In this document: positions 32,766-56,210 of the stretch, piece by piece
How positions within the stretch are numbered: the first letter of the stretch is position 1
How the letters are laid out: each line of letters starts with the position of its first letter
Source: Lachnospiraceae bacterium MC2017
GTDB lineage: Bacteria > Bacillota > Clostridia > Lachnospirales > Lachnospiraceae
Direction: 5' to 3'
Length of the DNA: 64,000 bases
Assembly: GCA_000701625.1 (NCBI GenBank)
Contig: JNJK01000008.1
Location: forward strand, 124,001-188,000
The notes under the pieces: generated by a model
Seen by the model: the letters and a program-made list of their open reading frames with translations, nothing else
What the model was told of the DNA's origin: nothing
Database searches by the model: none
Program-made: the position numbers and the translations under genes

Positions 32766-34757
32766 TTATCTTTTTGAGTTGCGATACTGAACCGGTGTCA
32801 TCTCATATCTTTTCTTAAACTGACGATTGAAATGTTCAACGCTTGGATATCCTACATTTTCCGCAACCTTCTCAACTTTCATATTTCCGTTTCTGAGAAG
32901 GGTGCAGGCTTTTTTAAGTCGTATCTTCTGCACATTTTCACTGAAGGTTGCACCGCTCTTTTCCTTAATATATTTAGAAAGATACGGCTTTGACAGGAAA
33001 AATTCTCTCGAAAGATCGTCAAGCGTCACCGACAAATAGTTTTCCTGAATATAGTTTACGATTTCCGTAATACGCTGATCCTTATCATTTCTATTATCAC
33101 GGATAGCTTCGAGTTGGTTTACTGCTACTATAAGAGCATTGATGGATGATGTGATGATATCCTCATCAATTCCAACGCCCCAGTAGTGCTTTCCGTTAGC
33201 TGTGATGCCAACATATGTGCAAGCCTTACTGGATGAGCCATGGCTCAGTGCATGCTCTTCGTAAGTAGTAAGCTCATAACTGATATCAAAGTAGGACTTT
33301 ATCGCATTGCTTACTGCATCCAGACGACCATTTCCGTTTGCCGCCACGATAACATCTTTTCCATTTCTGGATATCGTAGCTTTAACAAGGATACCATCGA
33401 TCTGCTCAAAGTGGCATTCTTTAATAGTAAACACACCATCATTATGAACATATTTATCTTCAAAAATATGATATACACGCTCCGGCGAAAGCTCTGAATG
33501 CTCTCTGTCAGAAATTCCCTTAACTGTGTATCCCACATCTTCCTGCATTGTCTTCGGAATCTGCAGGCCGTAGTTCTGCTTAAGGATAAAGCTTACGCCA
33601 CCCTTTCCTGACTGTGAATTGATACGGATGACATCTCCGTCATACTCACGACCAAGATCCTTTGGATCAACCGGCAGATACGGCACGCTCCAGGGGCGAT
33701 CCATATGTGACTTCCTCCATGCAAATCCCTTGGCGATAGCATCCTGATGAGAACCCGAAAAAGCTGTAAACACAAGCTGTCCGGCATACGGCTGTCTTGC
33801 AGGTATCTCCATTCTGGTAAGTTTCTCATATATAGCTCCGATCTCATTGATGTGTGAGAAATCAAGCTTTGAATCAACCCCGTGAGTAAACATATTCATG
33901 GCAAGTGTTACGATATCAACATTACCTGTTCTCTCACCATTTCCGAAAAGTGTTCCCTCTATTCTGTCAGCACCTGCAAGCATTCCAAGCTCTGCATCAG
34001 ATATACCGCATCCTCTGTCGTTATGAGGATGAAGCGAAAGTGTCACTGCATTTCTGTATTTCAGACTGTTGCTTATATATTCTACCTGTGTGGCAAATAC
34101 ATGCGGCATGGCATTTTCAACGGTTGTCGGTATATTGATGATAACCTTATTTTCTTCTTTCGGCTGCCATACGTCGAGAACCGCGTTACATACATCTACT
34201 GCATACTCAACCTCTGTTCCCGGAAAACTCTCCGGAGAATACTCAAAGGAAAAATTACCCTTTGTCTCATCAGCAAGTTTCTTTAAGAGTTTTGCTCCAT
34301 CAATAGCGATCTGCTTGATATCCTCTTTATTCTTCTTGAACACCTGCTCTCTCTGAGCGACCGAAGTTGAGTTATAAAGATGAATGATAGCTCTGGGAGC
34401 ACCTTCTACCGCTTCAAAGGTCTTACGGATGATATGATCTCTCGCCTGAGTCAGAACCTGAAGTGTTACATCATCCGGAACCATCTTTTTCTCAATAAGA
34501 GTTCTTGCGAACTTATACTCAGTTTCCGATGCAGCAGGGAAACCAATTTCTATCTCCTTAAATCCGATGTCAACAAGCATACGGAAGAAATCAAGTTTCT
34601 CTTCAAGACTCATCGGTTCGATAAGTGCCTGATTTCCGTCTCTAAGATCTACGCTGCACCAGATAGGAGCCTTCTCTATATGATCCTTCTTTACCCAATT
34701 GTAAGTAGGATTTTTCGGCATAAAATATTGAATGGCATACTTGTTTTCATCGTACAT
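32766..34757 (-). CDS. leuA: 2-isopropylmalate synthase fused to an AraC-type DNA-binding domain
   Basis: LeuA condenses acetyl-CoA with 2-oxoisovalerate, the first step of leucine synthesis, and is inhibited by leucine. Residues 1-350 are the HMGL-like TIM barrel (V-D-L-R-D-G-N-Q-A, L-H-P-H-N-D-R-G-C-G metal site) of the long LeuA type. Residues about 370-550 cover the linker and the LeuA_dimer allosteric domain (V-A-A-N-G-N-G-R-L-D-A). The reading frame then continues without a break into about 100 residues (562-663) of an AraC/XylS double helix-turn-helix: L-S-R-E-F-F-L-S-K-P-Y-L-S-K-Y-I and V-A-E-N-V-G-Y-P-S-V-E-H-F-N-R-Q-F-K-K, ending P-V-Q-Y-R. This suggests an enzyme that also senses leucine and binds DNA. 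It stands alone; leuB, leuC and leuD are not in the window. Confidence 0.92.
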   Translation of the reverse strand: MYDENKYAIQYFMPKNPTYNWVKKDHIEKAPIWCSVDLRDGNQALIEPMSLEEKLDFFRMLVDIGFKEIEIGFPAASETEYKFARTLIEKKMVPDDVTLQVLTQARDHIIRKTFEAVEGAPRAIIHLYNSTSVAQREQVFKKNKEDIKQIAIDGAKLLKKLADETKGNFSFEYSPESFPGTEVEYAVDVCNAVLDVWQPKEENKVIINIPTTVENAMPHVFATQVEYISNSLKYRNAVTLSLHPHNDRGCGISDAELGMLAGADRIEGTLFGNGERTGNVDIVTLAMNMFTHGVDSKLDFSHINEIGAIYEKLTRMEIPARQPYAGQLVFTAFSGSHQDAIAKGFAWRKSHMDRPWSVPYLPVDPKDLGREYDGDVIRINSQSGKGGVSFILKQNYGLQIPKTMQEDVGYTVKGISDREHSELSPERVYHIFEDKYVHNDGVFTIKECHFEQIDGILVKATISRNGKDVIVAANGNGRLDAVSNAIKSYFDISYELTTYEEHALSHGSSSKACTYVGITANGKHYWGVGIDEDIITSSINALIVAVNQLEAIRDNRNDKDQRITEIVNYIQENYLSVTLDDLSREFFLSKPYLSKYIKEKSGATFSENVQKIRLKKACTLLRNGNMKVEKVAENVGYPSVEHFNRQFKKRYEMTPVQYRNSKR

Positions 34758-34816
34758 AACTGCTTCGACCTCCTTAGAAGCAAAACCGTCAACTTTTTTG
34801 ATGTATGTTATGTTAT

Positions 34817-34836
34817 CACTTTAACCGCATAAAGTG
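34817..34836. promoter_or_regulatory. Palindrome upstream of leuA, candidate operator
   Basis: CACTTTA and TAAAGTG, perfect 7-base arms, flank ACCGCA 60 bases before the leuA ATG. On the minus strand TTTATG and TAACAT, 17 bases apart, overlap it as a weak promoter. It is a candidate site for the AraC domain of the LeuA fusion or for another regulator. No T-box features were seen in this 303-base gap, which is otherwise A/T-rich with no other gene. Confidence 0.4.
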
Positions 34837-34994
34837 TAGGGACAATTTTAATATGTTGTATTGATCTTTCTTAATGCAAATATGTCTGCAATGTTTTTTA
34901 TCGACAGTATCTAAGCCATTTTTTACCCATGATTCATTTTTTTGAACATGAAAATTTAAATCAATAATTAATTACAAAAATAAGTGAACAAAGA

Positions 34995-55864: not shown

Positions 55865-56210
55865 TGATGTCAGGGTCAAAAGGTCAAAATCCGATTGTGC
55901 TTGCACAAAGAGGATTGAGACCTTGGGACCCGCAAAACACGAGCAAGTAGCGTTATTACGCGGAATGCGAGTGTTTTAGGATTGCGGGAATTGCGTAGCA
56001 ATGAAGCAATCCGTGTTATTGTTCAGACGCAACCGGAGCACTACGCTGCGTAGGTTGCGACCAAGAAAGATGAAAAACCATTGGATTTTGCCCATCGCCG
56101 AAGGCGATTTAATTGGCAAAATCCGTTACGTGAGCGAGCTGGAAGCGAGTGAACAGTAACCAATCCGTGACATCAGTAAGGGGCAAAATTTACTTTTGAC
56201 CCTTACATCA
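55865..56210. mobile_element. Composite non-coding element with terminal inverted repeats
   Basis: TGATGTCAGGGTCAAAAG (55865-55882) and CTTTTGACCCTTACATCA (56193-56210) are inverted with 17 of 18 matches, enclosing 346 bases. It contains a GATAACACG-type module (55936-56018) and a family 1 repeat (56019-56160). There is no reading frame for a transposase, so it resembles a MITE carrying other repeats. Parts of it recur at 16402, 26053, 49674 and 54734. It lies 3 bases before the eno stop codon. Confidence 0.65.
56019..56160. repeat. Family 1 structured intergenic repeat, copy C
   Basis: In the same orientation as copy A. The first hairpin arms are CGCAACC / GGTTGCG where copy A has CGTAAAC / GTTTACG, two compensated base pairs. 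The second hairpin and the GAGCGAGCTG ... GTGAACAGTAAC end are nearly identical to copy A. Confidence 0.85.

Follow-up and report, generated by a model that had tools for sequence, protein, structure and literature searches.

A 2-isopropylmalate synthase fused to an AraC-type DNA-binding domain in Lachnospiraceae and a candidate operator in front of its gene

Enzymes which also act as regulators are known from several systems, and PutA, BirA and NadR are bifunctional proteins of this kind. In BzdR, as described in PMC3602430, a shikimate-kinase-like domain is placed on a helix-turn-helix (HTH) and the kinase-like part is without detectable kinase activity. All four possess an enzyme or enzyme-like part and a DNA-binding domain in one chain, as does the LeuA-AraC fusion described here. 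The fusion differs from them in that it concerns the first step of leucine synthesis, carries an AraC-type DNA-binding domain and contains a built-in end-product domain. LeuA2/yeast-type enzymes, represented by LeuA of M. tuberculosis (1SR9), share with the fusion the catalytic, IPMS_D2 and LeuA_dimer domains and the catalytic residues, but the 1SR9 chain (644 aa) stops at the end of the allosteric domain while the fusion continues into an AraC domain. AraC/XylS regulators with an N-terminal cupin sensor have the same C-terminal double HTH as the fusion; their sensor part is the cupin, whereas in the fusion this place is taken by a whole biosynthetic enzyme which brings an allosteric domain of its own. 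T-box control also acts on leuA, but it is an RNA leader which senses tRNA. No description of a LeuA-AraC fusion or of its operator was found in the accessible parts of the open-licence literature, those of PMC9026213, PMC3602430 and PMC4941109 included. The pair of LeuA and AraC domains may well be present in automatic annotations. Enzyme-regulator fusions as such are known, and what is new here is the candidate 39-bp operator before the fused leuA.

The fusion gene was studied in a window of 64,000 nucleotides, which is the whole stretch of DNA analysed. The features of the locus are as follows.

32766..34757, (-) strand: LeuA-AraC fusion ORF of 663 aa, with ATG start and no internal stop
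33837..34667, (-) strand: HMGL-like catalytic domain, residues 31-307 (Pfam PF00682, 226.9 bits; catalytic residues aligned to 1SR9)
33579..33776, (-) strand: IPMS_D2 post-catalytic domain, residues 328-393 (Pfam PF22615, 110.4 bits)
33111..33494, (-) strand: LeuA allosteric domain (LeuA_dimer), residues 422-549 (Pfam PF08502, 91.2 bits)
33075..33110, (-) strand: variable linker, residues 550-561 (within the stretch 550-575, which has the lowest conservation of five compared)
32769..33074, (-) strand: AraC double helix-turn-helix, residues 562-663 (Pfam HTH_18 at 582-660, PF12833/PF00165 family pair, and conservation)
34769..34775, (-) strand: ribosome-binding site AAGGAGG (from the sequence)
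34788..34802, (-) strand: ATCAA-N5-TTGAC in the presumed 5' leader (alignment; conserved in the own clade)
34810..34818, (-) strand: extended -10 TGATAACAT, 18 bp after the operator candidate
34837..34875, (-) strand: 39-bp operator candidate ATTAAGAAAGATCAATACAACATATTAAAATTGTCCCTA (upstream alignment and PWM, 33.9 bits; the window locus is among the PWM training loci)

As judged from its sequence, the protein is a complete LeuA2-type 2-isopropylmalate synthase with an allosteric domain and an AraC HTH in one chain. Pfam places the domains in the order HMGL-like, IPMS_D2, LeuA_dimer and HTH_18/HTH_AraC, with 69.4 bits for HTH_18 (582-660) and 49.2 bits for HTH_AraC (621-660), and all domain scores lie above the gathering scores. 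The NCBIfam model NF002991/PRK03739 (LeuA2) gave 796.8 bits against a cut-off of 455, and the yeast-type equivalog TIGR00970 gave 658.6 bits, below its cut-off of 697.4. The unbroken passage from LeuA into AraC claimed by the first-pass annotation is confirmed by the ORF of 663 aa without internal stop and by the Pfam order. Its coordinates and domain reading were also right, with residue 582 as the start of the Pfam HTH and about 562 as that of the conserved region. A stop or frameshift near the junction did not appear in close relatives, as the same unbroken ORF is present in L038 (a MAG, 99.7% identity) and L009 (93%), and these agreeing genomes rule out an assembly artefact as the source of the fusion. 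A search of the own genome gave 24 matches, among which the LeuA part is covered by the fusion alone and the other 23 represent the AraC part. The ATCAA half of the leader element (34788-34802) is found in Butyrivibrio too, and the full ATCAA-N5-TTGAC element is a possible extra binding site. Elsewhere in the window, a Clostridiales-1 RNA was found at 55865-56021 on the (+) strand (Rfam RF01699, 118.1 bits).

Residue conservation was analyzed in both halves of the protein. The residues of M. tuberculosis LeuA (1SR9) which we take to be catalytic or metal-binding map to R39, D40, E176, H243, H245, N279, H337 and Y360; all eight are invariant in 30 fusions, and the enzyme half appears intact. 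Residues 592-598 and 640-648, presumed from knowledge of the AraC family to be the DNA-contacting recognition helices, show little or no variation at most positions. The first-pass annotation had asked whether such residues are lost in all homologues; they are not, the presumed recognition helices being kept across the 30 fusions. Mean consensus frequencies are 0.88 for the catalytic domain, 0.80 for the HTH, 0.77 for the allosteric domain and 0.58 for the linker. The median dN/dS was calculated after removal of pairs with saturated or tiny dS, which kept 96 of 231 Butyrivibrio pairs. It is 0.012 for the HTH and 0.030 for the enzyme in Butyrivibrio (96 pairs), 0.020 and 0.027 in the own clade (5 pairs), 0.054 and 0.059 in Sporomusaceae (6 pairs), and 0.049 and 0.040 as well as 0.049 and 0.029 in two further sets of 2 pairs each. 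By these ratios, the HTH is under purifying selection.

A LeuA match is present in 365 of the 397 genomes of the own family (Lachnospiraceae). The spread of the LeuA plus AraC architecture in this family, which the first-pass annotation had left to be mapped, covers at least 89 of the 397 genomes, in which, among the matches listed, the alignment runs through query residue 660 or beyond. Among the best 80 of at least 542 relatives with C-terminal alignment, 76 loci carry a full-length fused ORF with a stop. The other four are L040 and L087, both cut by contig ends, L044, whose stop is missing at a contig end, and L063, which has an early stop. Within the same best 80, the fusion is held in the family by Butyrivibrio, Roseburia, Agathobacter, Acetitomaculum and other Lachnospiraceae, and outside the family by Sporomusa, a Pelosinus MAG and a Peptococcaceae MAG; B. 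proteoclasticus P18 and B. hungatei XBD2006 are among the Butyrivibrio with the full-length form. In an order-level search of 392 genomes, every match below 1e-50 fell within the own family, and the best match in any other family (3.1e-31) covered the HTH only. In one genome with the same genus label, G079, the search gave a distant unfused LeuA (L147, ~50% identity) and did not find a fusion.

The fused leuA is preceded by an AT-rich element of 39 bp with the consensus ATTAAAATAnATCAAnnAAAntGATTAAATTTnnCACTA, in which ATCAA and ATTAA are the strongest parts. In the upstream alignment of the own clade the block is conserved in 13 of 14 loci, with L115 as the exception, and it was found again in 19 Butyrivibrio-group loci. 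A 39-bp PWM was built from 49 sites of these two groups, three of them second matches in one locus, and then run on the remaining loci; since the training sites were picked by pattern, the counts free of circularity are the held-out ones only. With a threshold of at least 18 bits within 900 bp, the operator was detected in 98 of 107 fused loci (the table holds 107 of 110 loci, L040, L063 and L087 having been dropped). The training groups account for 48 of 52 loci and the held-out fused loci for 50 of 55, or 47 of 50 distinct upstream regions, where the held-out L038 is a near copy of the window locus. The held-out misses are L012 and L115, which share one upstream region, L027 and L100, which share another, and L034, which is weak; those of the training groups are L042, L061, L076 and L083. 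Judged by eye only, L027/L100, L042, L061, L076 and L083, all below 18 bits, resemble operators with indels of 1-2 nt. Among 37 unfused leuA loci the operator was found in none within 400 bp (best -5.1 bits), and no site of 12 bits or more was found anywhere in these loci, whose upstream part spans 350 bp in L136, ~1 kb in L157 and L159 and more than 1.4 kb in the other 34. The split locus L151 retains the operator (31.4 bits) and the diverged split L158 retains it in part (7.6 bits). The fusions of Sporomusa, Pelosinus and the Peptococcaceae MAG carry the same operator.

The position of the operator relative to the promoter is also conserved. In 76 of the 98 loci the operator is followed at 18 bp by an extended -10 matching TGnTAnn[ACT]T, and in 18 loci at 17 bp; one of the other four has it at 13 bp and three are without it, while shuffled tails match anywhere in 3. 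For the 50 held-out sites the spacing is 18 bp in 47, 17 bp in 2 and without extended -10 in 1. A good -35 was not seen by eye, and the 3' end of the operator falls at about the presumed -35 position. An operator end at -35 together with an extended -10 is the geometry of AraC-type activators, and the extended -10 without a good -35 makes activation the most likely mode. Acetitomaculum ruminis (L012/L115, one genome represented twice) has an intact fusion with no clear operator, along with TTGACA at -35 and a T-box.

No T-box was found in the window at gathering score, and T-box control of the window leuA was rejected on this basis. There are 19 fused loci with an operator 412-825 bp upstream, and a T-box is situated between operator and leuA in 12 of the 12 of them which were scanned. 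Three further fused loci in the same scan were L115, with a T-box and no clear operator, and L027 and L034, which are without T-box. A T-box is present in 13 of 17 unfused close relatives and absent from two splits and one cut fusion included in that scan; it was found in 0 of 20 fused loci with a close operator and in 0 of 20 distant unfused loci. Taken together, the T-box scans and operator counts indicate that what stays constant in the fusion is the protein site, with the T-box as an optional layer.

A pattern search of 76 genomes was made. It found sites in 26 of the 37 fused genomes, in 1 of the 37 unfused ones and in neither of the 2 split ones, and the reversed-pattern control gave 1 match in the 76. 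By position, a site lies upstream of leuA in all 26 fused genomes with a match; second sites were seen in G207, at leuC, and in G141, in the same upstream region as the first. The own genome has no match with this pattern, and its leuA site was found with a different one. A wide regulon was not seen there, as the own genome holds the leuA site and one 3-mismatch site before a 133-aa ORF, the good site being at leuA alone. It has two leuC-like genes (L236 3027-6046, in G000:C35) with 44% and 42% identity to Butyrivibrio LeuC, and the gene between them is presumably leuD-like; no operator was found within 600 bp of either leuC-like gene.

The genus of G207 was taken as Butyrivibrio because its LeuA nests among Butyrivibrio rows. 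Among 61 genomes of this genus 49 have a match; the sites number 75, and 9 were obtained with the pattern reversed. From the 75, 49 distinct sites in 50 loci were checked, 20 of these loci having been picked mostly for looking unlike leuA sites. Of the checked sites, 26 lie upstream of leuC at a distance of 103-164 bp, no two of them in the same genome, and 16 stand before leuA; 8 of the 50 loci were given to neither gene, one site being found in two of these. L263, one of the eight, is probably a leuA site at a contig end. In G207, leuC is followed by a gene which we take to be leuD-like. B. hungatei and B. proteoclasticus have sites at both leuA and leuC, and they may be two of the 61 genomes. 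A leuC site was found in none of 27 other fused (own included), 17 unfused and 2 split genomes, in a test made without G377 and without the additional leuC-like gene of G308 and of G085; with the 27 other fused genomes lacking it, more than one target is seen in Butyrivibrio only. A site at leuA is present in five Sporomusaceae genomes and in UBA5318; four other matches there carry 2 mismatches each and equal the reversed-pattern count (four). In Lachnospiraceae MA2020, a second operator-like site (L350 1060-1098) lies ~150 bp before an HMGL-like gene, which we take to resemble Re-citrate synthase; the genes after it are presumably GntR-like and isocitrate-dehydrogenase-like. Two other operator-like sites, both with 2 mismatches and seen in one genome each, are at L302 (G760), presumably before a transporter-like gene, and at L297 (G758), presumably ahead of a small ORF accompanied by a CstA-like gene.

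The variation of the HTH was compared with that of the site. In a clade whose first HTH carries E590, AATCA or AATCC stands near the operator 3' end in 9 of 9 members against 0 of 89 others; as the match is confined to one clade, it may represent one event. The LeuA tree offers 3-4 independent fused/unfused contrasts, in which the operator goes with the HTH in 2.2 on average, against it in 0 and shows no difference in 0.8, a number on which a sign test cannot reach significance.

On balance, the fusion is likely to be a working 2-isopropylmalate synthase and at the same time a transcription factor for leucine synthesis which binds its own promoter, probably as an activator and with leucine as the likely signal. 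An enzyme and leucine-responsive regulator had been proposed by the first-pass annotation. The one-chain architecture and the company of HTH and operator at the own promoter (in Butyrivibrio at leuC too) favour the proposal, and these features, together with conservation and spacing, are seen in the sequences themselves. DNA binding, the sign of activation and the gating by leucine are parts of it which we infer. LeuA is a dimer. The dimer would present two C-terminal AraC domains to the 39-bp site, and the bound site would reach the -35 of the leuA promoter and, in Butyrivibrio, that of the leuC promoter. At a promoter without a good -35 the AraC domains may contact polymerase, by which leuA (and leuC in Butyrivibrio) would be activated. 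Leucine at the allosteric domain, which adjoins the HTH, would inhibit the enzyme and release or re-set the DNA-binding part; without leucine the enzyme would run and the HTH activate, and with leucine both would stop.

Other readings of the same features differ in sign, in signal or in the role of the HTH. The same bifunctional protein may act as a repressor, leucine-bound LeuA-AraC blocking its own promoter, since a protein at the operator 3' end near -35 could also block polymerase. We hold this unlikely, because the extended -10 and the lack of a good -35 by eye are as found in activator-dependent promoters and the operator is situated upstream of the -10 and the presumed start. A modest chance is given to a signal other than leucine, namely the substrate 2-ketoisovalerate or the product 2-isopropylmalate in the active site. 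The intact catalytic residues agree with such a signal, and in yeast 2-isopropylmalate is the co-activator of Leu3, but the HTH is attached behind the allosteric domain and not behind the barrel.

It is quite improbable that another regulator of the leucine genes binds the 39-bp site while the fused HTH does something else or nothing. The HTH of Acetitomaculum without a clear site would fit this, but site and HTH otherwise occur together (held-out 50/55 fused against 0/37 unfused), the split L151, whose HTH is intact, keeps its site of 31.4 bits, and the Sporomusaceae fusions carry the site too. That the HTH plays no part in regulation and is a passive tail, as its loss in some lineages might suggest, seems very improbable, because its dN/dS of 0.012-0.054 in five sets is about that of the enzyme (0.027-0.059) and operator and spacing are conserved. 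An activator responding to leucine remains the preferred reading. If true, it would mean that common gut and rumen bacteria possess a leucine regulator which is easily overlooked because it is sited in an enzyme, and that an allosteric enzyme has been turned into a transcription factor in nature. The leucine-binding domain, the AraC domain and the candidate operator could also serve as a biosensor.

To understand the history of the fusion, phylogenetic trees of both parts were constructed. The LeuA tree without HTH columns had 118 rows, with L040, L044, L063, L087, L148, L149 and four fifths of the L051-L088 rows left out. On it the fused label needs 4 changes against 33 with shuffled labels, and one gain and three losses suffice. 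A second LeuA tree (70 rows, quick method, G692 pair included) gave 6 changes, at least 2 of them on well-supported branches. The trees point to an old fusion which was mostly inherited and lost several times. In the 118-row tree the Sporomusa, Pelosinus and Peptococcaceae rows nest inside the Lachnospiraceae rows, which suggests transfer. In the HTH tree (68 rows, 104 columns), the fused HTHs and that of the split L151 form one clade (95/93), and L158 and L304 are positioned next to it (83/91), apart from 30 other AraC domains.

L304 is the nearest stand-alone relative of the HTH that was found. It is an AraC gene with a cupin-type sensor (AraC_binding and HTH_18) in the genome G692, directly behind an unfused leuA and starting 4 nt past its stop. 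In the 70-row LeuA tree the G692 pair is on a long branch, so the placement of its LeuA is unsure. Before this leuA, a weak operator-like stretch was placed by eye 18 bp ahead of TGATAGTAT; it scores 0.65 bits and is the second best in its 6 kb. The tree position of L304 and its adjacency to leuA make a neighbouring AraC gene with lost sensor a plausible source, as seen in one genome on a long branch. A fuller scenario is put forward tentatively: an AraC gene adjacent to leuA may have lost its cupin sensor and its DNA-binding part joined the allosteric domain, so that the enzyme would take the place of the sensor and one leucine pocket would set flux and expression, and gene and operator may then have moved into Sporomusaceae. 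An apparent intermediate (a separate AraC gene beside leuA), splits, losses and a likely transfer are all represented. The arrangement at L309 (G692:C4), an unfused leuA directly followed by a cupin-type AraC gene, is possibly ancestor-like, with a T-box-like sequence seen by eye upstream.

HTH relics were searched behind 41 unfused or split leuA genes, and clear ones on the same strand were present in L151 and L158 only. In L151 (G061), an out-of-frame HTH with 72-76% identity to the fused ones follows leuA; the operator is retained, and the HTH is possibly a separate small gene. L158 (G078) has a run of eight A near the leuA end and then an out-of-frame HTH, 51-52% identical to the fused ones, which may represent genuine slippage, a fusion in decay or an error of the assembly. 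Behind leuA in L144 there is an AraC-like gene on the opposite strand, and L140 shows a weak antisense match.
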